Both the position numbers and the translations under genes were made by a program. A stretch of DNA of 39,740 nt from an uncultured Clostridia bacterium (GTDB lineage Bacteria; Bacillota; Clostridia; Christensenellales; Borkfalkiaceae), in the NCBI GenBank assembly GCA_947625865.1, contig CANQQD010000014.1, positions 1 through 39,740 on the forward strand. Reading direction: 5' to 3'. The notes below the pieces were generated by a model. That model saw nothing but the letters and a program-made list of their open reading frames with translations. It was not told the origin of the DNA and did not search any database. Shown here piece after piece: positions 5,068 to 19,937 of this stretch. Each line of letters opens with the position of its first letter. Positions within the stretch are counted from its first letter, which is position 1.

Positions 5068-5200
5068 GCTCCCGCCAACGTCTTATAAACGTCGCAATAC
5101 TGTGTCGCGCTGCGGCAACTCTCAGTTACGTACGTCTTTGTACGCTCCTTCAAGTTTTCCTCACGCTCCTTGTCTTGCTCGTTTCTAAGCCGTTGCATTA
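5068..5200 (+). repeat. Stop-codon-flush repeat A, copy 1 (after rpsJ)
   Basis: Starts on the base after the rpsJ stop codon. Shared phrases with the copies after rpsQ, secY and rpmJ are ATAAACGTCGCAATAC, GTGTCGCG, CTCCTTGTCTTGCTCGTTTC and CCGTTGCA. The central hairpin is CGTAC (5129-5133) with GTACG (5140-5144) around a 6-nt loop. There is no U-run, so it is not an ordinary terminator. A partial second tail with CTTGCTTCTAACCGCTTGC follows up to about 5235. Confidence 0.8.
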
Positions 5201-5250
5201 AACTTGCTTGCTTCTAACCGCTTGCATTAAATTTGCTTTTCTTATTTCTA

Positions 5251-5442
5251 TATATAATGTTTATGGCGCAAGCAGGGTTTCCCTGCGCCAGCGCAACCCA
5301 ATTTGCAAACTCTTTTGCCTCAGCGGTGGGAATTTGCGCCATTATATAAAAAGTGCGCCCTTAAAAATGGCGCAAAGGGCGGCAGAGCCGCCGAAAATCA
5401 CGAAAAATCGCAGGGCGCGCAACCGCACGAGATTTTTGTGAA
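5251..5442 (+). repeat. Modular structured element M, copy 1
   Basis: The core module runs from 5251 to 5348 and is closed by TATATAATG plus GCGCAA (5251-5271, with six extra bases between) against TTGCGCCATTATATA (5334-5348). Inside are hairpins CAGGG/CCCTG (5273-5285) and GCAAA/TTTGC (5305-5318). A second module follows: hairpin GGCGGC-AGA-GCCGCC (5378-5392), then arms TCACGAAAAAT (5398-5408) and ATTTTTGTGAA (5432-5442). Both modules recur upstream of adk and, inverted, at 39374-39575. It occupies the rpsJ-rplC gap. A TATAAT at 5253-5258 has no good -35 box. Confidence 0.65.
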
Positions 5443-5540
5443 CTTGACTTTGTGATACTCTACGTTTGACTGACGACGGAGACGGCGCAACGGAAAAACG
5501 CGGTATCTTCAAATAAAAATAAAACGGAGGAACTTTATCA

Positions 5541-6170
5541 ATGAATAAAGCAATCATCGGCCGTAAAGCGGGTATGACCCAGATATTTACGGCGGAGGGC
5601 AAGGTGATACCCGTAACCGTCATAGAGGCGGGACCCTGCCCCGTAGTGCAGATCAAAACTGTTGAAAAAGACGGCTATGCCGCTTTGAAGCTCGGTTTTG
5701 ACGAAGCAAAGGAAAAGGCGCTCACAAAGCCCGACCTCGGACAGTTCAAAAAGGCAAAGGTAAAGCCCTGCAAGGTTTTAAAGGAATTCCGCCTCGACGA
5801 TCTGTCGTCCTACGAAGTGGGCAAAGAGGTTAAGGCGGACGTGTTCGCGGCGGGCGACAAGGTCGACGTACACGGCGTAACCAAGGGCCACGGATTTTCG
5901 GGCGTCATCAAGAGATGGAACCAGCACAGGCTCAAGGAAACGCACGGCGTAGGTCCCGTTCACAGGGAGCCCGGTTCAATGGGCGCGAACAGCTCGCCCT
6001 CGAGAGTTTTCAAGAACAAGAGGCTCGCGGGACAGTACGGCGTGGAGAACGTGACCATACAGAACCTCGAAGTCGTACGTGTGGACGCCGAGAGAAACTG
6101 TTTGCTTATTAAAGGTTCGGTTCCCGGACCCAACGGTGCGGTCGTTACCATAAACGACACCGTTAAATAA
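5541..6170 (+). CDS. rplC: 50S ribosomal protein L3
   Basis: 209 residues, typical length. L3 binds 23S rRNA near the peptidyl-transferase centre and is an early assembly protein. The N-terminal [12 protein letters not shown] and the central loop [14 protein letters not shown] plus HREPGSMG are diagnostic. The start has CGGAGGA 9 nt upstream. It begins a tight run through rpsQ with gaps of 0-14 nt. Because of the upstream gap, its transcription needs read-through from rpsJ or a promoter inside the repeat region. Confidence 0.98.
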
Positions 6171-6184
6171 GGAGGACGCGCAAA

Positions 6185-6811
6185 ATGCCTAATATTAAAA
6201 TATTGAAAATGGACGGCACCGAAGCGGGAGAAATGGAGCTCTCCGAAAAGGTATTCGGAGCCGAGTATAACGAAGCTCTCATCCATCAGGCGGTTGTGAC
6301 CCGTCTTGCAAACGAAAGACAGGGCACGAAATCCACCCTCACCCGCACGGAGGTGCGCGGCGGCGGCAAGAAGCCGTGGAGACAGAAGGGCACGGGCAAC
6401 GCCCGCCAGGGCTCCATCAGGGCTCCCCAGTGGACAAAGGGCGGCGTAGTGTTCGCTCCCAAGAGCCGCGACTATTCCAAGGATATGAATAAAAAGGCAA
6501 AGACGGCCGCACTCATATCCGCTCTCTCCAAGAAGGTCGCCGACGGCGAACTCATCGTCGTGGACAGCCTGCAGGTTAAGGAGGGCAAAACCAAGGAAAT
6601 GGCTGCGTTCAGAAAGGCTCTGAAGCTCGACAAGAGCGCGGTGGTGGTAATGGATAACGACGACCAAAAGGTGATCCTTGCGGCGCGCAACCTTCCCGGC
6701 TTCTCCACCCTGCCCGTAGCGCAGATATCCACATACGAGGTAGTTGCCAACGCCAAGGTCGTTCTGACCAAGGCGGCGGTAGAAAAAATCGAGGAGGTCT
6801 ACGGAGAATAA
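6185..6811 (+). CDS. rplD: 50S ribosomal protein L4
   Basis: 208 residues. L4 lines the exit tunnel; in gamma-proteobacteria it also autoregulates the S10 operon, which is not shown for Clostridia. The tunnel loop is recognisable in RTEVRGGGKKPWRQKGTGNA and RAPQWTKGGVVF, residues of about 55-90. AAGGAGG precedes the start. The stop overlaps the rplW start (TAATG), suggesting translational coupling. Confidence 0.98.
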   Translation: MPNIKILKMDGTEAGEMELSEKVFGAEYNEALIHQAVVTRLANERQGTKSTLTRTEVRGGGKKPWRQKGTGNARQGSIRAPQWTKGGVVFAPKSRDYSKDMNKKAKTAALISALSKKVADGELIVVDSLQVKEGKTKEMAAFRKALKLDKSAVVVMDNDDQKVILAARNLPGFSTLPVAQISTYEVVANAKVVLTKAAVEKIEEVYGE

Positions 6812-7101
6812 TGTTTGCCGAAGATATAATAATAAAGCCCCTTTTGACCGAGAAAGGTTACGACGGCATAGCCGACAAAAAGTACTCCTTTGTCGTAAAG
6901 AAGTCGGCGGATAAAAAGCAGATCAAGGCTGCCGTCGAAAAGCTGTTCGGCGTAGACGTGAAGAGCGTCAACACCGTAAACTGCAAGGGCAAGAAGAAGA
7001 GAATGGGAAGATACGAGGGCTACACGCCCGATTATAAGAAGGCGATCGTCCAGCTTGAGGCTGACTCCAAGGCGATTGAGTTCTTCAACTCGTTATCGTA
7101 A
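6811..7101 (+). CDS. rplW: 50S ribosomal protein L23
   Basis: 96 residues, usual size. L23 sits at the tunnel exit and docks trigger factor and the signal recognition particle. Conserved features are IIKPLLTEKG near the start, YSFVVKKSADKKQIKAAVEK, and KKRMGRYEGYTPDYKKAIV near the end. The start codon shares one base with the rplD stop, and rplB follows after 12 nt with its own AAGGAGG. Confidence 0.98.
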   Translation: MFAEDIIIKPLLTEKGYDGIADKKYSFVVKKSADKKQIKAAVEKLFGVDVKSVNTVNCKGKKKRMGRYEGYTPDYKKAIVQLEADSKAIEFFNSLS

Positions 7102-7113
7102 GGAGGATCGAAA

Positions 7114-7941
7114 ATGGCTATTAAAAGGTACAGACCCACGTCCGCCGCACGCCGTTTCATGACGGTGAGCGCTTACGACGAAATCACCAGCGCCAAGCCC
7201 GAGAGGAGCTTGCTGCACGACAAGCGCAAAACGGGCGGCAGAAACAACCAGGGTAAAATAACCGTGCGTCACATAGGCGGCGGCAACAGAATAAAGTACA
7301 GAATTATCGACTACAAGCGCAACAAGGACGGCATACCCGCAACGGTCAAGACCATCGAGTATGACCCCAACCGCTCGGCGAACATCGCGTTGCTCGCATA
7401 TGCCGACGGCGAGAAGAGATATATCCTCGCGCCCGTAGGTCTGAACGTGGGCGACAAGGTTATCTCCGGCAAGGGCGCCGACATAAAGTCGGGCAACTGC
7501 CTGCCCCTCTCGGAGATCCCCGTAGGTACGGTCGTGCACGCAATAGAGCTCAAGCCCGGCAGGGGCGCGCAGATAGCGAGAGCGGCGGGCATCTCCGCCC
7601 AGATAATGGCAAAGGAAGGCGCCTACTGCACGCTGAGGATGCCCTCGGGCGAAATGAGGCTCGTTTCCGTTAACTGCAAGGCGACTATAGGACAGGTAGG
7701 AAATCTCGAGCACGAGATAATCCGCGTAGGCAAGGCGGGCAAGACCCGTCACCTCGGCACCCGTCCCACAGTGCGCGGCTCCGTCATGAACCCCAACGAC
7801 CACCCTCACGGCGGCGGCGAAGGCAAGAGCCCCGTGGGACACGCAGGTCCCCTTACCCCTTGGGGCAAGCCCGCTCTGGGATACAAGACGAGAAAGAAGA
7901 AGAATCCTACTTCCAAGTTTATTTTGAAGAGAATCAATTAA
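7114..7941 (+). CDS. rplB: 50S ribosomal protein L2
   Basis: 275 residues, full length. L2 is a primary 23S rRNA binder required for peptidyl-transferase activity and subunit association. The highly conserved [13 protein letters not shown] near residue 225 holds the functionally important His, and [15 protein letters not shown] lies near residue 48. The C-terminal [17 protein letters not shown] is typical. It sits in the compact S10 operon run. Confidence 0.99.
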
Positions 7942-7954
7942 GGAGGAATAGACA

Positions 7955-8233
7955 ATGTCAAGAAGCGTTAAAAAAGGACCTTATGCCGAAGCAAGGCTTA
8001 TGGCAAGAATAGAGGCGATGAACGCTGCCGGCGAGAAGAAGGTTATCAAAACCTGGTCCCGTGCGACAACGATATTCCCCCAGATGGTAGGACACACTAT
8101 CGCCGTTTACGACGGCAGAAAGCACGTGCCCGTGTACATTACAGAGGACATGGTAGGCTGCAAGCTCGGCGAGTTCGCGCCCACCAGAACATTCAAGGGA
8201 CATGCGGCAAAGACCGCGTCAGCCAAGAAATAA
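7955..8233 (+). CDS. rpsS: 30S ribosomal protein S19
   Basis: 92 residues, normal. S19 forms a complex with S13 in the 30S head near the A-site. Recognised by SRSVKKGPY at the start, [20 protein letters not shown] and the C-terminal [18 protein letters not shown] lies 10 nt upstream of the ATG. It lies between rplB and rplV as in most bacteria. Confidence 0.98.
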
Positions 8234-8245
8234 GGAGTTTGAAAT

Positions 8246-8635
8246 ATGGCAAGCAATATGAATAAAAAGCAGGAAAGAATTGCCGAGAATAAAGACAAGC
8301 GTCCTTATGCAACGGCTAAATACCTCAGAATTTCCCCCTATAAAATAAGAACGGTGCTCGCGCTCATCCGCGGCAAGTCGGTGGAGGAAGCCGAGGCTAT
8401 CCTCACCTACTGCACGAAGGGCGGCAGCGCGGAGGTAAAAAAGGTTTTGCTCTCCGCGGCAGCCAACGCCGAGCACAACAACGGCATGGACAGAAGCGAC
8501 CTCATAGTCGCCGAGGCGTTTGCGAACGGCGGTCCCCACTTGAAGAGAATGCAGCCCGTTTCCAAGGGCAGGGGGCACGCAATATTGAAGAGAACGAGCC
8601 ACGTCACCGTAATACTTGACGCAAAGAAGGTTTAA
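8246..8635 (+). CDS. rplV: 50S ribosomal protein L22
   Basis: 129 residues, somewhat longer than the common 110-115 because of a lysine-rich N-terminal extension (MASNMNKKQERIAENKDKR). The core KYLRISPYKIRTVLALIRGK is typical, and so is the tunnel hairpin KGRGHAILKRTSHVTVIL. L22 extends a loop to the tunnel constriction, the site of macrolide-resistance changes in other species. Confidence 0.97.
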   Translation: MASNMNKKQERIAENKDKRPYATAKYLRISPYKIRTVLALIRGKSVEEAEAILTYCTKGGSAEVKKVLLSAAANAEHNNGMDRSDLIVAEAFANGGPHLKRMQPVSKGRGHAILKRTSHVTVILDAKKV

Positions 8636-8646
8636 GGAGAGAATAT

Positions 8647-9315
8647 ATGGGACAAAAAGTTAATCCTCACGGTTTGAGAGTCGGCATAATTTCCTCATGG
8701 GATACGCAGTGGTACGCAGACAAGAAGACGTTCCCCGCGCATCTTAAGGAGGACAACGAGATCCGCACCTTCTTAAAGAAAAAGTATTACGAAGCGGCTA
8801 TCAGCAAAATAACCATTGTCCGCGCGGCGAACAAGATAGAGGTCGGCATCTATACGGGCAGACCTGGCGTGCTCATCGGCAAGCAGGGCTCCGAAATAGA
8901 GGTCATCAAGAAGGATCTTGCAAAGCTTACTAAGGGCAAGATAATTATAATCAACGTAAGAAAGATAGATAAAATAGACCAGGACGCACAGCTTGTAGCC
9001 GAGGCGGTAGCCGCCCAGCTCGAGAAGCGCGTATCCTACAGAAGAGCAGTAAAGCAGCAGATCGCAAAGGTGGCAAAGTCGGGCGTCAAGGGCGTCAAGA
9101 TCACCGTCGGCGGCAGGCTTGACGGCAGGGAGATCGCGGGCACGGAGAGCTATCACGAGGGCTCCATACCCCTTCAGACGATCCGCGCCGACATCGACTA
9201 CGGCTTTGCTGAAGCGCACACAACCTTCGGCGTACTCGGCGTAAAGTGCTGGATATACAAGGGCGAGGTGCTCGAGAACAAGAAACTTATAATATCCGAG
9301 GGAGGCGAAGAATAA
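8647..9315 (+). CDS. rpsC: 30S ribosomal protein S3
   Basis: 222 residues. S3 lines the mRNA entry channel and helps unwind mRNA. It begins [15 protein letters not shown]. The KH-type RNA-binding segment [19 protein letters not shown] is near residues 75-95, and [20 protein letters not shown] lies in the C-terminal domain. The gene ends one nucleotide before rplP, whose ribosome site GGGAGG lies in the last codons of rpsC. Confidence 0.98.
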
Positions 9316-9316
9316 T

Positions 9317-9751
9317 ATGTTGATTCCCAAGAGAGTTAAAAGAAGAAAGCAGCACCGCGGCAAGCTGCACGGTTCGGCGCAGAAGGGCAACAAGATAGCG
9401 TACGGCGAGTACGGACTGGTTGCCGAGGAGTGCGGCTGGATCAAATCAAACCAGATAGAGGCAGCCCGTATCGCCATGACGAGATTCATAAAGCGTGGCG
9501 GACAGGTGTGGATAGATATATTCCCCCACAAGCCCATAACCCGTCACCCGGCAGAAGCCCGTATGGGCTCCGGCAAGGGCGCGGTTGAGTACTGGGTAGC
9601 AACGGTAAAGCCCGGCAGAGTAATGTTCGAAATGGCGGGCGTATCCGAGGACGTTGCCAGGGAGGCAATGAGGCTCGCGAGCCACAAACTCCCCATAAAG
9701 TGCAAGTTCGTCGCAAAGCAAGCGGAAGGCGGTGAAGCAAATGAAGGTTAA
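9317..9751 (+). CDS. rplP: 50S ribosomal protein L16
   Basis: 144 residues, typical. L16 organises the tRNA-binding region near the A-site. Conserved motifs include [30 protein letters not shown], and [19 protein letters not shown] around residues 78-95. The last codons overlap a GTG that could start rpmC, but an ATG shortly after suits L29 better. Confidence 0.98.
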
Positions 9752-9935
9752 GGAAATTATAAATTTAACCGATGAGGAGCTGAACAACAAGCTTCAGGAA
9801 CTCAAAACCGAGCTCTTCAATCTGCGTTTCCGCCATGCAAGCGGACAGCTCGAGAACCCCATGTCGATAAATCTCGTCAAGAAGGATATCGCAAGGGTCA
9901 ACACGGTGATCCGCCAAAGGCAGTTAAAGGCGTAA
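9741..9935 (+). CDS. rpmC: 50S ribosomal protein L29
   Basis: 64 residues from the ATG at 9741, the expected length, beginning [14 protein letters not shown]. An in-frame GTG at 9732 would add three residues but lies inside the ribosome site GGAAGGCGGTG, so the ATG is preferred. L29 sits beside L23 at the tunnel exit. [12 protein letters not shown] and [12 protein letters not shown] are typical. The start overlaps the end of rplP by 11 nt. Confidence 0.95.
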
Positions 9936-9947
9936 AAGGAGCAGAAA

Positions 9948-10208
9948 ATGGAAGAGAGAACAACTTTAAGAAAGGAAAGAGTGGGCATAGTGGTATCCGA
10001 TAAAATGGATAAAACGGTAGTAGTTGCCGTAACCGAAAAGTCCAAGCATCCCCTCTATAAAAAGACCATAACCAAGACCACCCGCTTCAAGGCGCACGAC
10101 GAAAAGAACGAGTGCGGCGAGGGCGACAGGGTCAGGATAGTGGAAACGCGCAAGCTGTCTAAGGATAAGAATTGGCGCGTGGCTGAAATTATCGAAAAAG
10201 CAAAATAA
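9948..10208 (+). CDS. rpsQ: 30S ribosomal protein S17
   Basis: 86 residues, normal. S17 is an early-binding 16S rRNA protein with an OB fold. Recognised by [36 protein letters not shown] and [19 protein letters not shown] ribosome site AAAGGAG precedes the ATG. It ends the first tight block of the operon; rplN, which normally follows within a few dozen bases, is 587 bp away behind repeats. Confidence 0.97.
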
Positions 10209-10337
10209 GCTACCGCCAACGTGTTATAAACGTCGCAATACGGTGTCGCGTTTACGCGCTCCTCGGTTACGTACTTCTTTGTACGCTCCCGTCGTCGCTT
10301 GCGCACGCTCCTTGTCTTGCTCGTTTCTAACCCGTTG
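10209..10337 (+). repeat. Stop-codon-flush repeat A, copy 2 (after rpsQ)
   Basis: Begins on the base after the rpsQ stop with GCTACCGCCAACGTGTTATA, nearly identical to the start of the copy behind rpsJ. It contains ACGTCGCAATACGGTGTCGC, the hairpin CGTAC (10270-10274)/GTACG (10281-10285), and CACGCTCCTTGTCTTGCTCG. No U-run is present. Confidence 0.8.
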
Positions 10338-10350
10338 CAAACCCCACACC

Positions 10351-10389
10351 CTGTCATTCTGAGGAGGGCGTAGCCCGACGAAGAATCTG
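10351..10389 (+). repeat. 39-nt repeat, partner of 138-176
   Basis: Plus-orientation copy of a 39-nt repeat whose inverted partner lies at 138-176, with one mismatch. It starts CTGTCATTCTGA and contains GGGC-GTA-GCCC. It lies behind repeat A in the rpsQ-rplN gap and is followed by another TTTCTAACCTGTTGC motif. Confidence 0.8.
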
Positions 10390-10461
10390 TTTCTAACCTG
10401 TTGCAGACTTCGTAATTTCAATAATTTCGTAATTATAAAATTAATGTCAAGCGTTACGCTT

Positions 10462-10675
10462 GCGGCGACACGCCGCTTGATGAGCGGTAATGTGAGTCAA
10501 GTGGTACGGTAATTAAGATACCCGGCTGCGGCGACACGCCGCTTGATGAGCGGTAATGTGAGTCAAGTGGTACGGTAATTAAGATACCCGGCTTGCGGCG
10601 ACACGCCGCTTGATGAGCGGTAATGTGAGTCAAGTGGTACGGTAATTAAGATACCCGGCTGCGGCGACACGCCGC
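10462..10675 (+). repeat. Tandem repeat of 66-67 nt, three full units plus a partial
   Basis: Units start at 10462, 10528 and 10595 and a truncated one at 10661. The full units are almost identical, with one extra T before the third. Each begins with the hairpin GCGGCG-ACA-CGCCGC, followed by TTGATGAGCGGTAATGTG and TAATTAAGATACCCGGCT. A diverged single unit, CACGCCGTTTGACGTGCGG, lies near 23476. No spacers exist, so it is not a CRISPR. It occupies the space between rpsQ and rplN; recent expansion is inferred from the near identity. Confidence 0.92.
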
Positions 10676-10689
10676 ATGATTACTACCTT

Positions 10690-10728
10690 GCACAAAGGAG
10701 AGCGGGGCGACCCACCTCGCTTATGTGC
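10690..10728 (+). promoter_or_regulatory. Stem-loop in the region before rplN
   Basis: GCACA (10690-10694) pairs with TGTGC (10724-10728), and inside it AGCGGGG (10701-10707) pairs with CCTCGCT (10715-10721), with one G-U. It lies about 70 nt upstream of rplN and outside the tandem repeat. It could be a leader structure or an RNA-processing site. No known class was recognised and no clear promoter was found nearby. Confidence 0.4.
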
Positions 10729-10795
10729 GCAAGGGGCAATCCTCTGCAAAATAAAAATACAGTTGTAAGTTTCAAATCAAAAAGGAGTCAGATTT

Positions 10796-11164
10796 ATGAT
10801 ACAACCTCAAACAAGGCTCAAGGCCGCGGACAACAGCGGCGCAAAGGAGCTTATGTGCATAAAGGTGCTCGGCGGCTCGGGACGCAAATACGCCAATATC
10901 GGCGACGTCATCGTCTGCTCGGTCAAAACCGCCGCTCCCGGCGGCGCCGTTAAAAAGGGCGAAGTGGTGAAGGCGGTAATAGTCCGCAGCGCCAAGGGCA
11001 TCAGACGCGACGACGGAACGCACATCACGTTCGACGACAACGCCGCGGTAATAATAAACGCAAACAAGGAACCTCGCGGCACGCGTATCTTCGGACCGAT
11101 AGCAAGAGAGCTTCGTGAAAAGAACTATATGAAGATAATATCGCTTGCCCCCGAAGTGCTGTAA
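10796..11164 (+). CDS. rplN: 50S ribosomal protein L14
   Basis: 122 residues, standard length. L14 forms inter-subunit bridges and is the target of the silencing factor RsfS. Conserved blocks are [20 protein letters not shown] and [14 protein letters not shown] near residue 40, plus [13 protein letters not shown] near the end. The start has AAAAGGAG 10 nt upstream. It opens the second tight gene block (spc part) after the repeat-filled gap. Confidence 0.98.
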
Positions 11165-11179
11165 TAAAGGAGAAGAGCT

Positions 11180-11599
11180 ATGAACGTAAAATTGAATGAT
11201 AATGTAGTTGTTATCACCGGCAAGTATGCGGGCAAGCAGGGCAACGTAATTGCCACATCTCCCAAAAACGGCACGGTTGTAGTAGAGGGCGTCAACATTC
11301 ACAAGAAGTCCAAGAAGGCGAGAAAAGCCAACGAGGTTTCCCAGATAGTCGAGGTGCCCGGCCCCATCGACGCGAGCAACGTAATGGTAGTGTGCGCGGC
11401 GTGCGGCAAGGCGATAAGGGTGAAGCACAGCATAGTCGACGGCAAAAAGGTGCGCGTATGCGGAAAGTGCGGCGCCGTTCTGGACAAGGGCTATGTATCC
11501 AAGGCTGCGGCAAAGGCTGCAAAGAAGGAAGAACCCAAGAAGCGCGTAAGGAAGCGTGCTAAAAAAGAAGAGACCGCCGAGAGCGGCGAGACCGAATAA
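11180..11599 (+). CDS. rplX: 50S ribosomal protein L24 with zinc ribbon and charged C-terminal tail
   Basis: 139 residues, against about 100-105 for most L24. The KOW core [18 protein letters not shown] and [10 protein letters not shown] is normal. A Cys4 zinc ribbon is visible at Cys72, Cys75, Cys94 and Cys97. From about residue 107 a low-complexity Ala/Lys/Glu/Arg tail of about 33 residues follows ([20 protein letters not shown]). L24 initiates 50S assembly. The tail faces the similarly Lys/Ala-rich N-terminus of the next gene product, L5. Confidence 0.96.
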
Positions 11600-11610
11600 G
11601 GAGGTGCGCG

Positions 11611-12228
11611 ATGGCTACTACAAAGAAGACTGCGGCAGAGCCCGCAAAAAAGACCGCGGCTGAGGCAAAGCCCGCCGGCAAGGTATATAAGTCGAGAGTG
11701 CAGGAGCAGTACGAAAAGGAAGTCGTGCCCTACCTCGAAGGAAAATTCGGATATAAGAACCCCATGCAGGTGCCCAAGCTGGTAAAAATAGTTATAAGCT
11801 CGGGACTCGGCGACATAAAGGACAACGCAAAGTCCATACAGCTCGCCCAAAACGAGCTCAAGCAGATCACGGGACAGCAGCCCGTGTTGACAAAGGCAAA
11901 GAAGTCGGTTGCGAACTTCAAGGTGCGCGAGGGCATGACCATAGGCTTAAAGGTAACGCTCCGCGGCAAGATGATGTACGACTTCTACGATAAATTCATT
12001 TCCATCGCTCTTCCCAGAGTGCGCGACTTCAGGGGCGTGCTTTCGGAGAGCTTTGACGGAAAGGGCAACTATTGCATGGGCGTAAAGGAGCAGCTCATCT
12101 TCCCCGAGATCCAGTACGATCAGGTCGAAAAGATAAGGGGCATGGATATCTGCATCGTAACGACCGCGCAGACCGACGAAGAAGCGAGAGAACTTTTAAG
12201 GGCTTTGGGTATGCCCTTCAAGAAGTAA
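11611..12228 (+). CDS. rplE: 50S ribosomal protein L5 with Ala/Lys-rich N-terminal extension
   Basis: 205 residues, about 25 more than the common 179. The extra part is an N-terminal low-complexity segment with a repeated KKTAAE. From about residue 27 the protein is a standard L5 ([50 protein letters not shown]). L5 binds 5S rRNA and contacts the P-site tRNA. AAGGAGG lies directly upstream of the assigned ATG, so the extension is probably translated. Confidence 0.97.
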
Positions 12229-12238
12229 GGAGAAATAT

Positions 12239-12424: not shown

Positions 12425-12438
12425 GGAGGAGAATTGAA

Positions 12439-12831: not shown

Positions 12832-12845
12832 GGAGGTAATTTAGT

Positions 12846-13394
12846 ATGTCAAGAATAGGTAAATTACCCGTATCCATTCCCGCAGGCGTTTCCGTGACCT
12901 TCGAAGACGGGCTGCTTACGGTAAAGGGAAGCAAGGGCACGCTCACCCAAAAGGTTACGGGTGAGATAGATATTAAGGTAGAGGGTGCGGAGGCGCACGT
13001 GGTAACCACGGGCAACGCCGACGACACCAACGCAAAGCACGGCTTATACCGCGCTCTTCTCCACGACATGGTAGTTGGTGTGACCGAGGGCTACACCATC
13101 ACGCTGAACGTCAACGGGGTAGGCTGGAAGGTCGCAAAGAACGGCAACAAGCTCGTTCTGAACGTAGGCTTTTCACACCCCGTGGAATTTGTGGAGCCCG
13201 CAGGCATAACCTTTGCCTGCCCGAGCGACAAGGAAATAACCGTATCCGGCATAGATAAGACCGTGGTCGGACAGACCGCGGCAAACATCCGCAAAGTAAG
13301 AATTCCCGAACCTTATCACGGTTACGGCATCGCGTACAAGGGCGAAGTGATCGAGCGCAAGGAAGGCAAGACGGGAGGTAAGGGCAAGAAGTAA
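12846..13394 (+). CDS. rplF: 50S ribosomal protein L6
   Basis: 182 residues, normal. L6 lies near the factor-binding centre of the 50S subunit. It has the two tandem domains typical of the family. SRIGKLPVSIPAGVSV opens the first, and the second ends with RKVRIPEPYHGYGIAYKGE and a basic tail. The next gene, rplR, is separated by 70 nt that contain a GNRA-capped hairpin. Confidence 0.98.
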   Translation: MSRIGKLPVSIPAGVSVTFEDGLLTVKGSKGTLTQKVTGEIDIKVEGAEAHVVTTGNADDTNAKHGLYRALLHDMVVGVTEGYTITLNVNGVGWKVAKNGNKLVLNVGFSHPVEFVEPAGITFACPSDKEITVSGIDKTVVGQTAANIRKVRIPEPYHGYGIAYKGEVIERKEGKTGGKGKK

Positions 13395-13464
13395 TATCCC
13401 GTGCGGCGCTTCCCGCAAAGGGGTACAAGCAACCGCGAGGTTGGTTGCCCAATAAGGAGAAATT
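13395..13464 (+). promoter_or_regulatory. rplF-rplR spacer with GNRA-loop hairpin
   Basis: The spacer is longer than its neighbours. It holds CAACC-GCGA-GGTTG at 13430-13447 (with GCAACC/GGTTGC as an alternative pairing) and a CCC-GCAAA-GGGG stem before it. The opening ATCCCG and the CCGCAA...GGGTA phrase resemble the rplO-secY spacer. No U-run follows, so a translational or processing role is more likely than termination; this is inference. Confidence 0.4.
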
Positions 13465-13833
13465 ATGATAAAGAAGATAGATAAAAACGAAGAGAGGCTC
13501 AGACGTCACACGCGCGTCCGCAAAAAGATTTCGGGCACGGCGGAAACTCCCAGAATGAGCGTATTCCGCAGCCTCAACCATATCTACGTCCAGATAATAG
13601 ACGACGTTAAGGGCGTTACATTATGCTCGGCGTCCACCATGGAAAAGGACGTAAAGGCAAAGATAGAAGGTCTTTCAAAGACCGAAGCCGCAAAGGTCGT
13701 CGGCAAGGTCGCAGGCGAAAAGGCTGTCGCACTCAAAATAGAAACAGTTGTCTTTGACAGGGGCGGCTACCTCTACACGGGACGTGTACAGGCGGTTGCA
13801 GACGGCGCGAGAGAAGCCGGACTCAAATTCTAA
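13465..13833 (+). CDS. rplR: 50S ribosomal protein L18
   Basis: 122 residues, standard. L18 binds 5S rRNA together with L5 and L25-type proteins and helps place it in the central protuberance. Typical motifs are [33 protein letters not shown] and [20 protein letters not shown] with the terminal EAGLKF. An AAGGAG site precedes the ATG. Confidence 0.98.
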
Positions 13834-13844
13834 AGGAGCTTATT

Positions 13845-14381
13845 ATGGAAGAAAAGAAAGAAAGACCCGCAAGAAGAGAACAGAGAAGAAGACAGCAGGA
13901 AGACGACGGACTTGTTAAAAAGCTCATACAGGTCAACCGCGTTACCAAGACTGTCAAGGGCGGCAGAAACATGCGCTTTGCCGCGCTCGTCGTAGTAGGC
14001 GACGGAAAAGGCTCCGTGGGCTACGGCATGGGCAAGAGCAAGGAAGTTCCCGAGGCTATCGAAAAAGCCAACGCACAGGCAAAGAAGAACATGAAGAAGG
14101 TCAGCCTTCAGGGCACGTCCATTCCGCACACCGTGCTCGGCGTATTCGGCAGGGGCTCGGTTTTGATGATGCCTGCCTCCGAAGGTACCGGCGTTATAGC
14201 GGGCGGTCCCGTGCGTGCCGTTATGGAAGCCGCGGGAGTCAAGGACGTAAGAACGAAGTCCCACGGCACATCCAATCCCATTAACTGCGTAAAGGCGGCT
14301 ATCCACGGCTTAATGGATCTGAAATCGCCCGAAGAGGTTGCCGCAGCCCGCGGCAAGACCGTTGAAGAGGTCAAGGGTTAA
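13845..14381 (+). CDS. rpsE: 30S ribosomal protein S5
   Basis: 178 residues, with a basic N-terminal extension rich in Arg/Glu. S5 is important for translational accuracy and mRNA entry. The conserved double-stranded-RNA-binding-like part reads [20 protein letters not shown] and [20 protein letters not shown], and the second domain has [20 protein letters not shown]. It is followed after 12 nt by rpmD. Confidence 0.98.
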
Positions 14382-14393
14382 GGGAGGCACAGC

Positions 14394-14573
14394 ATGATAA
14401 AGGTAACGTTGATAAAGAGCCCGAGCAACGAGCAAAAGACGGTGAAAGCCACCGTTGCCGCGCTTGGTCTCAAAAAAATAAGACAGTATAAAATTCTTGA
14501 GGAGACGCCCGCCAACCTCGGGCAGATTTCCAAGATTTCCTACCTTCTCAAAGTGGAAAAAGTGGAGGAGTAA
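14394..14573 (+). CDS. rpmD: 50S ribosomal protein L30
   Basis: 59 residues, the normal short bacterial form: MIKVTLIKSPSNEQKTVKAT at the start, LGLKKIRQYKILEETPANLG in the middle, ISYLLKVEKVEE at the end. L30 binds the 23S and 5S rRNA interface of the 50S subunit. The ATG follows GGGAGG. The gene lies between rpsE and rplO as expected, ending three bases before the rplO start, so the two are probably translationally coupled. Confidence 0.96.
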   Translation: MIKVTLIKSPSNEQKTVKATVAALGLKKIRQYKILEETPANLGQISKISYLLKVEKVEE

Positions 14574-14576
14574 AAA

Positions 14577-15026
14577 ATGAGAATAGATACATTACAGCCC
14601 GCAGAGGGCGCAACGACCCCCGCAAAGAGACTTGGAAGAGGTATAGGCTCCGGGCTCGGCAAAACGTCCGGCAAGGGACATAAAGGACAGTGGGCGCGTT
14701 CGGGCGGCGGCGTACGTCCCGGCTTCGAGGGCGGTCAGATGCCCATGCACAGAAGAGTGCCCAAGCGCGGTTTCCATAACAAGTGGGCTACGAGTTATAC
14801 CATTATAAACCTCAGCCAGCTTGCAGACGTACCCGCGGGTACGGTGGTTGACTTCGGATATGTTTCCGAACATTCCCTTGCAAAGGAAGTTAAGGGCAGC
14901 GCAGGTCTCAAGGTTTTGGGCGGCGGCGAAATAAAGGTCGCGCTCACCGTAAAAGCCGCAAAATTTTCCGAGAGTGCAAAAACAGCCATCGAAAAGGCGG
15001 GCGGCAGCGCAGAGGTCACAGAATAA
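14577..15026 (+). CDS. rplO: 50S ribosomal protein L15
   Basis: 149 residues, typical. L15 is a late-assembly 50S protein with an extended glycine-rich N-terminal part. [20 protein letters not shown] and [20 protein letters not shown] are diagnostic. The ribosome site (GGAGGAG) lies within the last codons of rpmD. secY follows after 36 nt. Confidence 0.98.
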
Positions 15027-15062
15027 AGATCCCGCACCCGCAAGGGTGTAAAGAGGTTTGGT
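15027..15062 (+). promoter_or_regulatory. rplO-secY spacer with GNRA-loop hairpin
   Basis: CACCC-GCAA-GGGTG at about 15034-15047 is a perfect five-bp stem with a GNRA tetraloop, followed by the secY ribosome site AAGAGG. It begins with ATCCCG directly behind the stop codon, like the rplF-rplR spacer. It could moderate translation or protect mRNA ends; no known regulator is recognised. Confidence 0.4.
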
Positions 15063-16421
15063 ATGTTTGAAACAATAAAAAATTGTTTTAAGGTAAAGGA
15101 GATAAGAAAGAAGATCTGGATAACCCTGTTGCTTCTTTTGATTTTCCGTTTGGGCTGCTATATCCCCGTTCCGGGAATAGATCCAAAGCAATTCGGCGAC
15201 GCGATAAACGGCAACGACTTTTTGAACGTGCTCTCGTCCATCACGGGCGGATCGCTGCAGAACGCCACACTCTTTGCGCTGGGAATAAGCCCCTATATCA
15301 ACGCGTCTATTATAATCCAGCTCCTCTCCGTGGGCATACCCGCGCTGGAGCGCCTTTCAAAGCAGGGTGAAGAGGGCAGAAAGAAAATTGCCCAGATAAC
15401 CCGATATGTAACGATAGCTCTCGCAGTTGCGCAGGCGATAGGCATAATAGTGAATTTCGGCATACAGGGCGACGCCCTCAGGCTCGAGATCTTCGGCGTT
15501 ATCCCCGGCAGCGGCATGAGCGAAACGGCGGCAAAATGGTTAGCGGGTATCTTCCTCACGGTAGTTTATACCGCAGGCGCGATGCTCGTTATGTGGATAG
15601 GCGAAAGAATAACCGAATACGGCATTTCCAACGGCATATCCCTTATAATCTTCATAGGTATTCTCTCCACGGCGGGACTGACGATCGTTGCAAACCTTAT
15701 AGACGGCTTCAGCGGCAATACCGTAAGATTCTGGGAGCTTTTGGGCTTTGTGTTGCTCACTATAGTCGAATTTGCGGCTATCGTCACGGTAGACCTCTCC
15801 GAGAGGAGAATACCCGTGCAGTATGCAAAGCAGGTGAAGGGCAGAAAGATGTACGGCGGACAGTCCTCGGTGATCCCCTTAAGGATCTCCGGCTCGGGCG
15901 TTATGCCTCTGATCTTCGCGTTTGCGATAATAACCTTCCCCCAGATGCTCATTTCGATGTTCTGGCCCAACACCTCGGCTAACGAGGGCATACAGATCTG
16001 GTTCTCCGGCTCTTCCACACAGTGGTACGGACAGCTTCTCTATATGCTTGCGCTCTGCGTGCTGATATTTGCATTTGCGTTTTTCTATGCTTCGATGCAG
16101 TTCAACCCCGAGGACGTTTCCAAAACCATACAGCAGAACGGCGGCTTTATACAGGGCATACGTCCCGGCAAGCCCACCGCGCTGTACTTAAAGAGAATAA
16201 ACAACCGTATAACGCTGTTCGGCGCAATATATCTGTCGCTGGTGGCGTTCATACCCTCGATTTTGAGCATGGTGCTCTCCAGCCTCGGCATGAGCAACCT
16301 TTCGTTACTTTCCGTATTCTCCACAACCGGTATATTGATTGTAGTATCCGTGGCAATGGAGCTGGATAAGCAGATGGAGAGCCAGCTGATGATGAAGAAC
16401 TACAAAGGCTTCCTCAAATAA
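15063..16421 (+). CDS. secY: Preprotein translocase subunit SecY
   Basis: 452 residues, within the family range, with about ten membrane helices. SecY is the protein-conducting channel of the Sec system in the cytoplasmic membrane and works with SecE, SecG and SecA, which are not in the window. Typical segments are LGCYIPVPGIDP near residue 35, the cytoplasmic loop KQGEEGRKKIAQITRY, and the ribosome/SecA-contact loop RRIPVQYAKQVKGRKMYGGQ near residue 245. SGVMPLIFA follows it. It ends the second tight gene block; adk follows only after 918 bp of repeats. Confidence 0.98.
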   Translation: MFETIKNCFKVKEIRKKIWITLLLLLIFRLGCYIPVPGIDPKQFGDAINGNDFLNVLSSITGGSLQNATLFALGISPYINASIIIQLLSVGIPALERLSKQGEEGRKKIAQITRYVTIALAVAQAIGIIVNFGIQGDALRLEIFGVIPGSGMSETAAKWLAGIFLTVVYTAGAMLVMWIGERITEYGISNGISLIIFIGILSTAGLTIVANLIDGFSGNTVRFWELLGFVLLTIVEFAAIVTVDLSERRIPVQYAKQVKGRKMYGGQSSVIPLRISGSGVMPLIFAFAIITFPQMLISMFWPNTSANEGIQIWFSGSSTQWYGQLLYMLALCVLIFAFAFFYASMQFNPEDVSKTIQQNGGFIQGIRPGKPTALYLKRINNRITLFGAIYLSLVAFIPSILSMVLSSLGMSNLSLLSVFSTTGILIVVSVAMELDKQMESQLMMKNYKGFLK

Positions 16422-16524
16422 GTTGCGTTGTGTATAAGCGTCGTTCTGCTGTGTTGCGCTGCGGCAACCCTCAGTCATTTACGATTTAGTAAACTCCTTC
16501 GGGTTTTCCTCGCGCGCCTTGCAT
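16422..16524 (+). repeat. Stop-codon-flush repeat A, diverged copy 3 (after secY)
   Basis: Starts directly behind the secY stop with GTTGCGTTGTGTATAAGCGT and keeps the order of the family: TGTTGCGCTGCGGCAACCCT, central hairpin, CCTCGCGCGCCTTG. The central hairpin is TTTAC (16478-16482)/GTAAA (16489-16493) where the other copies have CGTAC/GTACG, so paired positions changed together. This is the most diverged copy. Confidence 0.65.
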
Positions 16525-16675
16525 AACTCGCTTCTACGCACCGCTGAATTACAGAGCTGTGACTTCGTAATTGCAAAGTCTTGCTCGTTTCTGACCCGTT
16601 GCTAACTTCGTAAGTGCACGGAAAAACTCGCTTCTACGCACCGCTGAATTACGGAGCCGTGACTTCGTAAGTGCA
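16525..16675 (+). repeat. 100-nt tandem duplication of the repeat tail
   Basis: 16525-16575 and 16625-16675 are near-identical 51-nt segments at exactly 100-nt spacing (AACTCGCTTCTACGCACCGC, then CTGAATTAC and GACTTCGTAA). ACAGAGCTGT in the first becomes ACGGAGCCGT in the second, a change on both sides of the palindrome. The intervening part contains GCTCGTTTCTGACCCGTTGC, the tail motif of repeat A. Confidence 0.8.
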
Positions 16676-16830
16676 CTTTTCCTTGGCTTCTTCCCCTTGG
16701 GGGGGAAGCTCCCGCGTAGCGGGTGATGGGAGGGGCATAAAAAGGCGAAAGACTTCTCCCACCTGCCACTCTGTGGCACCCTCCCCCGTCGGCGACGGAA
16801 GAGGGCACGGGGGGGGGGAACGGGAGCAGC
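16676..16830 (+). repeat. Palindromic repeat E, uninterrupted form
   Basis: Contains CCTTGGCTTCTTCCCC, the hairpin CTCCCGC-GTA-GCGGGTGATGGGAG and the palindrome CCCTCCCCCGTC|GGCGACGGAAGAGGGC, with its centre at 16790/16791. This is the empty form of the site that carries 116-nt inserts at 321 and 23096. No gene is supported. Confidence 0.75.
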
Positions 16831-16837
16831 ATTAATA

Positions 16838-17320
16838 ATAAACGTTGCAAGCGCGGTAAGGGCGGCAGAGCCGCCAAAACTCACGGAAAATTTGCGCCTT
16901 ATTATCTGAAATATTTACAATAAAGTGCGCAAACCGTCACTTCGTTCGGGCGCAGTGCGCGAAACCGCACGAGAATTTCGTGAACAGTACAAAATAATTT
17001 ACGTTGCAAGCAGGGTTTCCCTGCGCCGCAAGCCCCAATTTGCGCATACCTGCGCCTCGGCGGGGTGAATGCCTGCGATTAAATAATTGTGGGCTCCTAA
17101 CAAATCGCAGGCAGAGGGACGAGCGCGGATTTCTCAAAACAGCACAGTGCGCTGTTTTGCCGCGCGAGCGGTGCCCGAACACGGCGTTGTCATTGCGCCG
17201 TGTGAGAAGCAGAGCCGCCAAAACTCACGGAAAATTTGCGCCTTATTATCTGAAATATTTACAATAAAGTGCGCAAACCGTCACTTCGTTCGGGCGCAGT
17301 GCGCGAAACCGCACGAGCTT
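16838..17320 (+). repeat. Modular structured element M region before adk, with 109-bp direct repeats
   Basis: 16865-16973 and 17209-17317 are identical over 109 bp. Each holds the hairpin module GGCGGCAGAGCCGCC (GCAGAGCCGCC in the second) and CTCACGGAAAATTTGCGCC ... CCGCACGAG. Between them, at about 16991-17088, lies a core module with hairpins CAGGG/CCCTG (17011-17023) and GCGCA/TGCGC (17042-17055). A 9-bp hairpin CAAAACAGC/GCTGTTTTG (17135-17159) and an ACGGCG/CGCCGT hairpin (17180-17200) follow. The second direct repeat abuts the adk ribosome site. Confidence 0.7.
17236..17265 (+). promoter_or_regulatory. Possible promoter for adk within the 109-bp repeat
   Basis: TTGCGC (17236-17241), an 18-bp spacer and TACAAT (17260-17265). 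The -35 match is weak (three of six) and the -10 good. An identical copy lies at 16892-16921 in the first direct repeat. If active it would start the adk-map-KOW-infA-rpmJ block with a leader of about 68 nt. Confidence 0.4.
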
Positions 17321-17339
17321 TTTGCGAAAAGGAATCTAT

Positions 17340-17969
17340 ATGAACATTATTCTTCTTGGAGCGCCCGGAGCGGGCAAGGGAACACAGGCAAGCATGCTTG
17401 CCGAAAAATATGATCTTTTGCACATTTCCACGGGCGACATATTCCGCGCTAACATAAAGGGCGGCACGGAAATAGGCAAACTCGCAAAGTCCTATATGGA
17501 CGCGGGTCTGCTCGTGCCCGATTCCGTTACGTGCGATATCGTCAAGGACAGACTGACGTGGGAGGACGCCGGTCACGGCTACATGCTGGACGGCTTTCCC
17601 CGCAACCTCTATCAGGCTGAAGAGCTGGATAAGTTCGCAAAAATCGACCTGTGCCTCAATATCGACGTGGACGTGAGCCTTTTGATGGACAGGATCTGCG
17701 GCAGAAGGGTGTGCTCGTGCGGCGCAAGCTATCACGTCTCCACGCTCGGCGGCAAGACCACCTGCGCAAAGTGCGGCAAGGAGCTGTACCAACGCGCGGA
17801 CGACAATCCCGAAACTGTGAAGGCGAGGCTCGACACCTATTTCCGCCAGACGGCGCCGCTCATAGATTACTATAAAAAGCAGGGCAAGCTCGTGACCGTT
17901 CACGGCGGCAAGGGCTCTCCCGACGAAGTGTTCGCGCAGATCTGCGGGCATCTCGATAAAAAATTATGA
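17340..17969 (+). CDS. adk: Adenylate kinase, zinc-lid type
   Basis: 209 residues. It interconverts ATP + AMP and 2 ADP in the cytosol. The P-loop GAPGAGKGTQ is at residues 7-16, and STGDIFR and LDGFPRN are typical of AMP and phosphate binding. The long lid holds Cys125, Cys127, Cys142 and Cys145, a zinc site of Gram-positive kinases, though CxC replaces the usual first CxxC. The ATG at 17340 follows AAAAGGA; an upstream in-frame start at 17322 would cut into the repeat and lacks a ribosome site. The stop overlaps the map start (ATGA). Confidence 0.97.
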   Translation: MNIILLGAPGAGKGTQASMLAEKYDLLHISTGDIFRANIKGGTEIGKLAKSYMDAGLLVPDSVTCDIVKDRLTWEDAGHGYMLDGFPRNLYQAEELDKFAKIDLCLNIDVDVSLLMDRICGRRVCSCGASYHVSTLGGKTTCAKCGKELYQRADDNPETVKARLDTYFRQTAPLIDYYKKQGKLVTVHGGKGSPDEVFAQICGHLDKKL

Positions 17970-18709
17970 TACACGTAAAATCCCCCGCCGAAATCGAACG
18001 CATGCGCGAGAGCTGCAGAATAGTAAAGGAAACGCTTGAGTTCGTCGGCAAAAACATACATGCGGGCATGACCACCAAGCAGGTGGATGAGCTCGTCTAC
18101 AGGTATATAACCTCGTGCGGAGCGATTCCCTCCAGCCTCGGCTACGGCGGCTTTCCCGCCAGCGCGTGCGTTTCGGTAAACGAGGTGGTCGTGCACGGGA
18201 TCCCGTCGGACAGGGTGATCCTCGACGGCGACATAGTGTCCGTAGACATAACGGCCGAAAAAAACGGCTTCAACGGCGACGCGGCAAGAACCTTTTTGAT
18301 AGGCAACGTGTCCGAAGAAAAGAGAAAACTTGTAAAGGTCACCGAGGAGTGTTTTTTCAAGGCAATTGAAGGTCTGCAGGCGGGCGTGCCGCTCTACGAC
18401 ATAGGCTATGCGGTGCAGACCCACGCCGAAAGCCACGGCTATGGCGTTGTCCGCGCCCTCGTCGGTCACGGCATAGGCAGGGACATGCACGAGGATCCGT
18501 CGGTGCCCAACTACGGCAAGAAGGGCACGGGCATGCGGCTTAAAGCGGGAATGACGATCTGCATAGAGCCGATGATAAATATGGGCACATACAAAGTAAA
18601 CTTTGGCAGCGACGGTTGGACGGTGACTACGGCGGACGGCAAGCCCGCGGCGCACTACGAAAACACGGTGCTCATCAAAGAGGACGGAGTGGAGATACTC
18701 ACCCTTTAA
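17966..18709 (+). CDS. map: Methionine aminopeptidase, type I
   Basis: 247 residues. Removes the initiator methionine from nascent proteins in the cytosol. All five metal ligands of the pita-bread fold are visible: Asp94, Asp105, His168, Glu201 and Glu232, with the substrate-site His77. It lacks the N-terminal SEC-C zinc segment found in some clostridial homologues. It starts inside the adk stop codon, so the two are probably co-translated, and it matches the adk-map-infA order of Firmicutes. Confidence 0.97.
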   Translation: MIHVKSPAEIERMRESCRIVKETLEFVGKNIHAGMTTKQVDELVYRYITSCGAIPSSLGYGGFPASACVSVNEVVVHGIPSDRVILDGDIVSVDITAEKNGFNGDAARTFLIGNVSEEKRKLVKVTEECFFKAIEGLQAGVPLYDIGYAVQTHAESHGYGVVRALVGHGIGRDMHEDPSVPNYGKKGTGMRLKAGMTICIEPMINMGTYKVNFGSDGWTVTTADGKPAAHYENTVLIKEDGVEILTL

Positions 18710-18717
18710 GGAGCGTT

Positions 18718-19020
18718 ATGAAGGTAAAGGAGCCGCAGATAGGCGGCATATGTCAAAGCCGTCAGGGCAGGGATAAGGACAGGTACTATCTGATAAAAGC
18801 CGTAAACGGGGACGGTACCGTGATGCTTGTGGACGGCAACTTCAAAAGGCTCTCTTCGCCCAAGAAAAAAAACATAAAGCACCTTACGCTTTTGCCCGAC
18901 AGGTCGGAGGCGATAGCCGAAAAGCTGGCATGCGGCAAACAGGTTTTCGATACGGAAGTGTTTTCCGCACTCAAAGCCTACAACAACCCCAAACAGGAAC
19001 AAGAGGTAGAGGATGTCTAA
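18718..19020 (+). CDS. KOW-domain RNA-binding protein (L14e-like)
   Basis: 100 residues from the ATG at 18718, which has AAGGAG upstream just behind the map stop. The N-terminal part [20 protein letters not shown] and [10 protein letters not shown], then KKKNIKHL, matches the KOW-type small protein found between map and infA in many Clostridia. The C-terminus is acidic and not recognisable. An RNA- or ribosome-associated role is likely from the domain and context, but the exact job is unknown. It overlaps infA by 8 nt. Confidence 0.8.
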
Positions 19021-19234
19021 GGACGACGTAATTGAAACCGAGGGCAAAGTTATAGAGTGTCTGCCCAATGCAAACTTTAAGGTAAAGCTTTCCAACGGGC
19101 ACATAATAACGGCATATATATCCGGTAAACTGAGATTGAACTATATAAGAATCATAGAGGGCGACAGCGTAAAGCTTGAAATGAGCCCCTACGATCTGAC
19201 CAAAGGCAGAATAACCTGGCGCAGCAAGAACTGA
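19013..19234 (+). CDS. infA: Translation initiation factor IF-1
   Basis: 73 residues, full length. IF-1 occupies the 30S A-site during initiation and supports IF-2 and IF-3. The OB-fold sequence [40 protein letters not shown] and [13 protein letters not shown] is unmistakable. It starts within the end of the KOW gene (8-nt overlap, different frame), so expression of the two is probably coupled. Confidence 0.98.
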
Positions 19235-19254
19235 GCCGAAAAAGGAGAAAAATC

Positions 19255-19371
19255 ATGAAAGTAAGACCTTCCGTAAAACCCATGTGTGACAAATGTAAAG
19301 TTATCAAGCGTAACGGCAAAGTTATGGTGATTTGTTCTAAGAATAAGTCGCACAAGCAACGCCAAGGCTAA
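19255..19371 (+). CDS. rpmJ: 50S ribosomal protein L36, zinc-binding form
   Basis: 38 residues ([20 protein letters not shown], then [18 protein letters not shown]). Cys11, Cys14, Cys27 and His33 form the usual zinc site. L36 stabilises 23S rRNA in the 50S subunit. AAAGGAG lies 8 nt upstream of the ATG. It ends the adk-rpmJ block; the stop codon is followed at once by repeat A, and rpsM starts only 566 bp later. Confidence 0.96.
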
Positions 19372-19485
19372 TTTAAACGCATATATACGTCGCAATACGG
19401 TGTCGCGTTTGCGCACTCCTTGGTCACGTACTTCTATGTACGCTCCCGTCGTCGTTTGCGCACGCTCCTTGTCTTGCTCGTATTT
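19372..19485 (+). repeat. Stop-codon-flush repeat A, copy 4 (after rpmJ)
   Basis: Begins directly after the rpmJ stop. It keeps ATACGTCGCAATACGGTGTC, GCGTTTGCGCACTCCTTGGT, the central hairpin CGTAC (19427-19431)/GTACG (19438-19442), and CACGCTCCTTGTCTTGCTCG. A second, partial copy starting GCGGCAACCGTCAGTTGCGT follows at about 19517-19590. Confidence 0.8.
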
Positions 19486-19741: not shown

Positions 19742-19937
19742 TTTAATTGCGTTTAAGTGCGCTTGAATTGCTTAACGGCATAAGTATCGCGCGGGAAGGG
19801 CATATATTTGCTTTTTCTGCGTTGAATTTAAAAATAATTTCGCCTGTCGCCGCGTTTATCATTCCGAATTTCCAAACGCAGCGGTTGGCGGTTCATATAT
19901 ACCATATTTAAAAATTTTTAAGGAGAAAGTAATTACT

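Follow-up and report, generated by a model that had tools for sequence, protein, structure and literature searches.

Hairpin repeats behind ribosomal and other genes of a Borkfalkiaceae bacterium: a possible REP-like DNA element of transcription-unit ends

We analyzed a stretch of 39,740 nucleotides (contig CANQQD010000014.1 of assembly GCA_947625865.1; hereafter the window) from an uncultured Clostridia bacterium of the family Borkfalkiaceae, in which four ribosomal-operon segments are each followed by a repeat of about 130 nucleotides that folds into one long imperfect hairpin. The family formed by these repeats is real. In its source lineage it is placed and oriented by rule, and it is kept for its fold; arms that change jointly, even where one of them is a gene's coding end, point away from junk. 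Our preferred explanation, to which we give a probability of roughly 0.45 and which rests on sequence comparison, is that the repeats constitute a structure-based DNA element, resembling repetitive extragenic palindromic (REP) sequences, that spreads to the ends of transcription units and comes to lie in the direction of the upstream gene. Our direct observations concern the hairpin, its covariation, its placement and orientation, near-identical copies and arms that track coding sequence. The copies in the window and their host genes are the following, with element coordinates given as covariance-model boundaries:

4768..5067, + strand: rpsJ, host gene of copy 1, named from its place in the S10 operon and by the initial annotation of this DNA
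5068..5196, + strand: full hairpin element, copy 1, directly 3' of the rpsJ stop codon; its central hairpin CGTAC-N6-GTACG occupies 5129-5144
9948..10208, + strand: rpsQ, host gene of copy 2, named in the same way
10209..10338, + strand: full hairpin element, copy 2, directly 3' of the rpsQ stop codon
15063..16421, + strand: secY, host gene of copy 3, named in the same way
16417..16545, + strand: full hairpin element of a diverged type, copy 3, beginning at the secY stop codon; its central stem is TTTAC/GTAAA
19255..19371, + strand: rpmJ, host gene of copy 4, read by eye and not called by the gene finder
19367..19495, + strand: full hairpin element, copy 4, whose outer stem TTTAAACGCA/TGCGTTTAAA begins at the rpmJ stop codon
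19511..19572, + strand: partial element copy (model positions 31-90), 3' of the rpmJ element

The initial annotation had reported four copies at the rpsJ, rpsQ, secY and rpmJ stop codons, running in the gene direction; all four are present, copies 3 and 4 being longer than it had noted. It had also reported that none has a U-run, and by eye we likewise find none directly behind any of the four. The central CGTAC/GTACG hairpin that it had described does exist. However, this stem is only the tip of the main hairpin, which extends from end to end and had been overlooked: the 5' end of the element (e.g., AACGGGT) pairs with its 3' end (ACCCGTT). Most elements measure 125-154 nucleotides. The tip is strongly conserved, usually as GGTCACGTAC-N6-GTACGCTCC, while the outer arms are variable; within the same genome the tip variants TTTAC/GTAAA and TGTAC/GTACA also occur. 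The four window copies, together with one from another contig, are more stable than shuffled sequences on both strands (at most 1 of 200 shuffles is equal), with z-scores of -3.3 to -4.8 on the gene strand and -4.5 to -7.0 on the opposite strand.

The family extends well past the window, and by more than chance. The 1.76-Mb assembly to which the window belongs (whose copies we call own copies) yields 45 BLAST matches, and 57 matches, 55 of them full-length and two partial, to a covariance model built from 28 copies. Matches were found in 38 of 61 genomes of relatives, namely in 34 of 37 assemblies of the same genus (own included) and in 4 of 24 from other families of the order. Within the genus the number of copies per genome ranges from 0 (G007, G017 and G024) to 56 (G013), next to the 57 of the own genome. 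Among 37 own copies, which lie at different places, identity to the nearest neighbor reaches 0.99. By eye, two copies (C1:331 and C4:65732) appear mixed, with arms seemingly of two types.

To evaluate the fold across this diversity, we considered 114 aligned matches from 80 loci, these being among the matches listed for an exact 21-nucleotide core. In this alignment, 96.7% of 2829 cells are paired and 23 of 27 pairs have changed on both sides. The covariation score is 0.485, as opposed to 0.129 in shuffled alignments (none of 500 reaches the observed value) and at most 0.064 when the alignment is slid. It is important to consider that the alignment was fitted to the covariance model, which favors pairing, and that the constancy of the tip columns is partly built in, because loci were picked by their exact core. 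Even with a model-made alignment, the excess of covariation in helices other than the tip is large. The joint change of both central arms between CGTAC/GTACG and TTTAC/GTAAA, from which the initial annotation had argued for compensatory change, is real in the alignment, and such changes are far above chance in the family as a whole.

The second line of evidence is placement. An upstream gene is at hand for 54 of the 55 own copies that were tabulated, and it is on the same strand in 51; for the other three, which occupy two places, the gene called upstream is on the opposite strand. When second members of tandem pairs are excluded, 49 own copies have a same-strand upstream gene, and 34 of these start within 25 nucleotides of its stop codon. 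Twelve start 32-65 nucleotides behind the stop codon, and ten of the twelve are directly preceded by a stretch with a T-run. The remaining three are the rpmJ copy, which is truly at the stop codon, a copy 244 nucleotides off that lies directly after a T-run, and a copy directly behind a partial element.

The same rule is apparent in other genomes. For S10-type regions of 20 relatives and the window, we tabulated 31 of 33 matches, leaving out the two weakest, and counted copies listed 150-390 nucleotides behind infA as starting at the rpmJ stop codon, as read from the sequence. All 31 copies point with the operon. Of these, 29 begin at a stop codon or overlap one, another lies after the rplQ terminator, and the last is ambiguous. 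The sites are mostly those behind rpsJ, rpsQ, secY and rpmJ, with further ones behind rplO, rplF, map and infA. In other records, dropping 11 partial matches from the 114 left 103, and 96 of these had enough upstream sequence to be usable; a same-strand open reading frame (ORF) of at least 80 codons ends between -60 and +80 nucleotides of the element start in 69 of the 96, and in 67 it ends between -19 and +23. In a mirror control, such an ORF was found in 33 of 93 cases with scattered ends, so nearby ORF ends are fairly common by chance, and the signal is the tight clustering. Position and orientation relative to stop codons and strand are thus non-random, both in the own genome and across species. 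Selection or targeted insertion at gene ends, as the initial annotation had suggested, is well supported by placement, orientation and compensatory changes; random placement with no excess of such changes, the outcome that it had named as a refutation, was not observed. As a separate observation, the rpsJ-rplC spacer of G013 (L102) contains, by eye, an apparent inserted ORF in place of the hairpin.

Elements can also include the end of the coding sequence in one of their arms. This is best seen at queA (the gene name is our reading), which a 341-amino-acid query recovers from 40 of 41 genus genomes. There, the gene-side arm is formed by the stop codon together with the four codons before it (e.g., ..CLFL*, ..MMVL* and ..MMIV*). 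We compared 30 loci, of which 12 have a clear element, three a degenerate, cut or shifted one and 11 no visible element, while four were too short or misread. In the 12 clear cases, the downstream arm pairs with its own gene's end at a mean of 13.75 of 17 positions, versus 10.4 with the ends of the others' genes, a difference that none of 20,000 permutations reproduced. Adding the three degenerate cases (L326, L334 and L341; 15 loci in total) gives 13.0 versus 10.1, again with 0 of 20,000 permutations. Among the 11 loci with no visible element there is no own-gene effect (9.5 versus 9.4; 6,257 of 20,000 permutations). The best queA arm, in L322, pairs at 16 of 17 positions; T.C is the most common exception, and in most queA copies it occupies one recurrent position. 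In one species (L316), the queA element has lost its inner part and kept the outer stem. Comparable arms made of coding ends are visible by eye behind rpsJ in L108 and rplO in L107, and L252 and L256 have complements of coding ends that, by eye, extend over 18-21 nucleotides. A further observation at queA is that six loci (L196, L317, L324, L325, L331 and L333) contain tandem units in which a second copy of the queA tail precedes the next hairpin.

In the own genome, the ORFs upstream of seven copies run 18-22 nucleotides in frame into the left arm, which supplies the stop codon. The seven proteins are of different kinds (by our reading Lgt-like, ComF-like, ATP-grasp, methyltransferase, RND-like and others), and they share similar tails, e.g., ..RRV* or ..SGL*. 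From these tails we infer that the element may have been inserted into the last codons of some genes. Together, the near-identical copies, the copy numbers between 0 and 57 and the seven genes that end inside an element indicate spread.

Which molecule folds is addressed by the strands. Counts of stability and mismatches draw on 159 distinct elements, the own genome having contributed 32 before identical ones were removed. With DNA parameters the template-side strand is the more stable one in 155 of 159 copies, and with RNA parameters it is so in 150 of 159; among shuffled controls, this was the case in 47 of 80 (RNA parameters). We attribute the better fold of this strand to the recurrent T.C mismatches of the gene strand, which become G.A on the other strand. 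When single mismatches flanked by pairs were counted with strand-neutral pairing in 156 elements, T.C was found 434 times, A.G 50, G.T 101, A.C 108, T.T 73, G.G 42, C.C 32 and A.A 23 times. RNA stems usually carry many G-U pairs on one strand. In our alignments, G-U wobble accounts for 1-3% of cells; wobble on a model's own strand compared with the other was 42 versus 26 for the plus-strand model, where half of the 42 fall at one pair, and 67 versus 34 for the minus-strand model, with the central pair left out. The rarity of wobble and its lack of a clear strand preference, combined with the stable template-side strand, lean toward folded DNA. On the explanation that we favor, the shape that is kept would be that of folded DNA, consisting of the long hairpin, its T.C mismatches and the conserved tip, where outer arms may change if they change together.

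We propose the following sequence of events for this explanation. The element would move as a folded single strand, probably the more stable template-side strand, with the mobilizing enzyme supplied in trans. It would land behind transcription units, oriented like the upstream gene. Old copies might then be kept because a fold at the gene end is useful, e.g., as a boundary behind the gene, or their fold might instead be restored whenever one arm serves as the template for its partner. A more specific and more speculative version, which we consider unlikely, is that the repeats represent a previously undescribed class of mobile DNA based on structure, in which only the hairpin tip is retained and the outer arms are built from the host site. 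In such a class, the inserted folded strand would be extended on the gene's own end, and the last codons and the stop codon would become one arm.

Several points count against the spreading-element explanation. The initial annotation had offered, as one option, a mobile element that recognizes gene ends of operons; the recent spread fits this idea, while no mobilizing enzyme was identified in searches for the Y1 transposase and reverse transcriptase. The Y1 transposase (PF01797) is present in 11 of 41 genus genomes, and was not found in any of the seven with the most copies, own assembly included (G000, G013, G023, G029, G026, G015 and G008). Reverse transcriptase (PF00078) was not found in G000, G029, G026, G015, G008 or G016; it is present in 5 of 19 genomes examined, comprising the high-copy G013 and G023 and the 0-1-copy G024, G010 and G011. 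We therefore lowered the possibility of reverse-transcriptase-driven spread, since none was found in the own assembly, even if the enzyme is present in two high-copy relatives. By eye, no target-site duplication was apparent in the one comparison of relatives that we made, in which spacers were strongly diverged. The viral contigs searched lack the exact core, and the plasmids and phages searched had no blastn match to one copy, which leads us to reject carriage by phages or plasmids. Of 30 own copies, 28 have one central pair that reads G.U on the template-side strand, the main point in favor of RNA on that strand. Old copies such as those at queA still pair with coding sequence, something that would not be seen in a purely selfish relic.

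Small spacers form a further objection. Spacers between secY and adk measure 140-918 nucleotides at the five loci with a copy; at 13 loci lacking one they measure 1-78 nucleotides in ten cases and 184-493 in three. At queA sites with no visible element, the next gene is often no more than about 20 nucleotides away. Because small spacers confine tolerated insertions to the neighborhood of the stop codon, purifying selection may account for some of the exact placement, and part of the closeness to stop codons needs no targeting. However, small spacers leave unexplained the single orientation and the copies directly behind terminators. Lastly, in genomes G192 and G182 from our phylum samples, the core tips palindromes of about 170 nucleotides (GTTCGAAAAG...CTTTTCGAAC; loci L270, L272, L274, L276, L278 and L280), and five of the six loci have no same-strand ORF (60 codons) ending within 150 nucleotides upstream, the sixth having one at 124 nucleotides. 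These loci argue against a strict gene-end rule outside the source lineage.

The alternative that we rank next is a functional structure at mRNA 3' ends, and we regard it as possible but unlikely. According to this hypothesis, the hairpin in the transcript would block 3'-5' exonucleases, slow terminating ribosomes or guide processing, as reported for REP sequences near stop codons. The initial annotation had raised a 3'-end or mRNA-processing signal as well, and copies that touch the stop codon in a fixed sense orientation agree with it. So do the pairing over the stop codon and last codons of queA, which is preserved across species and absent where the element is absent, and the fact that the commonest S10 sites (rpsJ, rpsQ and rpmJ) lie between gene groups with long spacers. 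On the other hand, 13 own copies are located behind a terminator or terminator-like hairpin, and these fold nearly as well as 24 copies at stop codons (the two sets were sorted by hand, and the shuffles in this comparison keep base composition only). Moreover, the gene strand has no clear G-U excess, which is why we do not consider the element a clear coding-strand RNA: wobble counts are neutral between strands. The gene strand is also the less stable fold in the great majority of copies even with RNA parameters, and in five distant cases the core lies behind a tRNA gene. An antisense RNA was likewise set aside; the minus strand folds better, but by eye no promoter sequence was recognized behind the element. 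The 13 copies just mentioned, and the absence of a T-run from the window copies, also led us to reject ordinary intrinsic terminators. Like these, the element is a hairpin behind genes, with a T-run at the outer stem in a few distant copies; unlike them, it is mostly 125 nucleotides or longer.

Quite unlikely, in our estimation, is a DNA boundary element, i.e., a palindrome that, folded or as a duplex, might bind gyrase, a nucleoid protein or a structure-specific nuclease at the ends of transcription units. This possibility is drawn by analogy: REP sequences and the bacterial interspersed mosaic elements (BIMEs) that they form bind such factors in E. coli. It would account for a location behind transcription units irrespective of a terminator, for the lack of a clearly preferred strand in the wobble counts and for an identical tip in records labelled as several phyla. 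However, 3 of 37 assemblies of the same genus have no match, so the element is probably dispensable.

More improbable still is drift of a quasi-palindrome, in which hairpin-directed template switching during replication re-copies one arm from the other, such that covariation needs no function. The coding arm would be held by selection on the protein, and the distal arm would follow. The equal numbers of G.T and A.C exceptions are as expected from this process, as are outer arms that are near-perfect complements of coding ends over about 17-21 nucleotides (L252 and L256 by eye, and L322). However, template switching would erase T.C mismatches, which are instead the most common and recur, and it leaves placement and spread unexplained.

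The idea that the repeats are integron attC sites, or a direct relative, can be dismissed as very improbable. The core sites of attC follow the consensus RYYYAAC and GTTRRRY, and in attC the tip is variable and the outer arms are conserved, the reverse of what is found here. None of 159 copies has both core motifs (one has RYYYAAC by itself, and GTTRRRY is present in none), which refutes membership; in addition, the host genes of S10 regions stand in conserved operon order and not in cassette arrays. Integron attC sites (PMC8876359) resemble the element in outline: both are imperfect hairpins behind a gene, in the gene's orientation, with a bottom strand that folds better.

REP and BIME sequences are likewise interspersed palindromes outside genes, and some of them follow stop codons closely: in E. 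coli, 446 of 4,072 predicted REPs lie within 15 nucleotides of one (PMC3733652, PMC12306157). According to PMC3733652, REP sequences measure 20-40 bp and carry a terminal GTAG or CGTC tag on one side, a flanking ORF can take its stop codon from their termini, their stems vary in both arms, and frequent GT pairing in these stems is taken as a hint of RNA function. Unlike REP sequences as there characterized, our element is about 130 nucleotides long, conserves its tip and not an end, has recurrent T.C mismatches with no clear wobble excess, is not linked to a Y1 transposase and can include coding sequence in its arms. With no Y1 transposase where copies are most numerous and no GTAG- or CGTC-tagged end, we rejected membership in the REP family served by REP-associated tyrosine transposases (RAYTs). 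The element resembles REP in placement and attC in outline, and is a member of neither.

Other known families were also considered. Miniature inverted-repeat transposable elements (MITEs) are, like our repeats, short, non-coding, recently multiplied palindromes; they keep their ends while the inside varies, whereas our element preserves its inside and has ends that differ from one host site to the next. No known RNA family matches: Rfam gave no hit above gathering score in the window, and none up to an E-value of 5 for copy 1 and its surroundings. Among the titles and abstracts returned by a literature search, none names anything like this hairpin family.

The combination of exact placement at transcription-unit ends with a distal arm that tracks host coding sequence is unusual among common interspersed palindromes. 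If the element is mobile, it would constitute a new route by which a hairpin is joined to the 3' end of a gene; to our knowledge, how this joining happens is an open question for integron cassettes. If it is functional, ribosomal and other genes of this lineage would end in a boundary element that is widespread yet missing from existing catalogues.

Among the matches listed, the exact core is patchily distributed beyond the Clostridia as well, in records whose titles read Alphaproteobacteria, proteobacterium, Myxococcales and Halobacteriovoraceae. Full-model matches in such loci include L166, L155 and L152, with E-values of about 2e-7, 9e-7 and 1e-5. In seven genomes, six reached through core loci of other phyla and one through a Ca. 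Caccopulliclostridium locus, the core with at most two mismatches has 33 matches, and the reversed control has none. Many of these 33 copies begin at stop codons. Four of the five copies that follow tRNA genes are among these 33; all five do so directly, and ARAGORN calls the tRNA in each of the five loci. By eye, the outer stem ends in a T-run in L240 (a Halobacteriovoraceae genome) and in L242 and L245 (alphaproteobacterial records). In evenly drawn samples of two phyla, the exact 21-nucleotide core was present in 4 of 398 genomes each, query genome included, with one control match overall. A core common to genomes of several phyla suggests a shared recognizing factor. Contig L136, which is labelled Alphaproteobacteria and contains a Clostridia-type copy, may be misbinned.

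Some additional features of the window deserve mention. Non-coding stretches upstream of rplC, rplN and rpsM (approximately 5440-5540, 10690-10795 and 19780-19930) are candidate ribosomal-protein leaders. By eye, those upstream of rplC and rplN (8 loci) and rpsM (5 loci) look conserved in most relatives; none has an Rfam match in the window. Genes were called with a small codon-based finder that missed rpmJ and rpsS and placed the start of rplN at 10853, where the ORF starts at 10796; this call is too late, and spacers between rpsQ and rplN are therefore given about 57 nucleotides too long. Within that spacer, positions 10458-10680 hold three tandem units of 66-67 nucleotides (GCGGCGACACGCCGCTTGATGAGCGG...), which are shorter or absent in the relatives compared. 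A 47-nucleotide inverted pair with TGTCATTCTGAGGAGGGCGTAGCCCGACGAAGAATCT is located at 10344-10390 and 137-183, and is also found 3' of rpsQ in L102. Finally, between map and infA, positions 18718-19020 contain an ORF of 100 amino acids with the tentative label 'infA?'.

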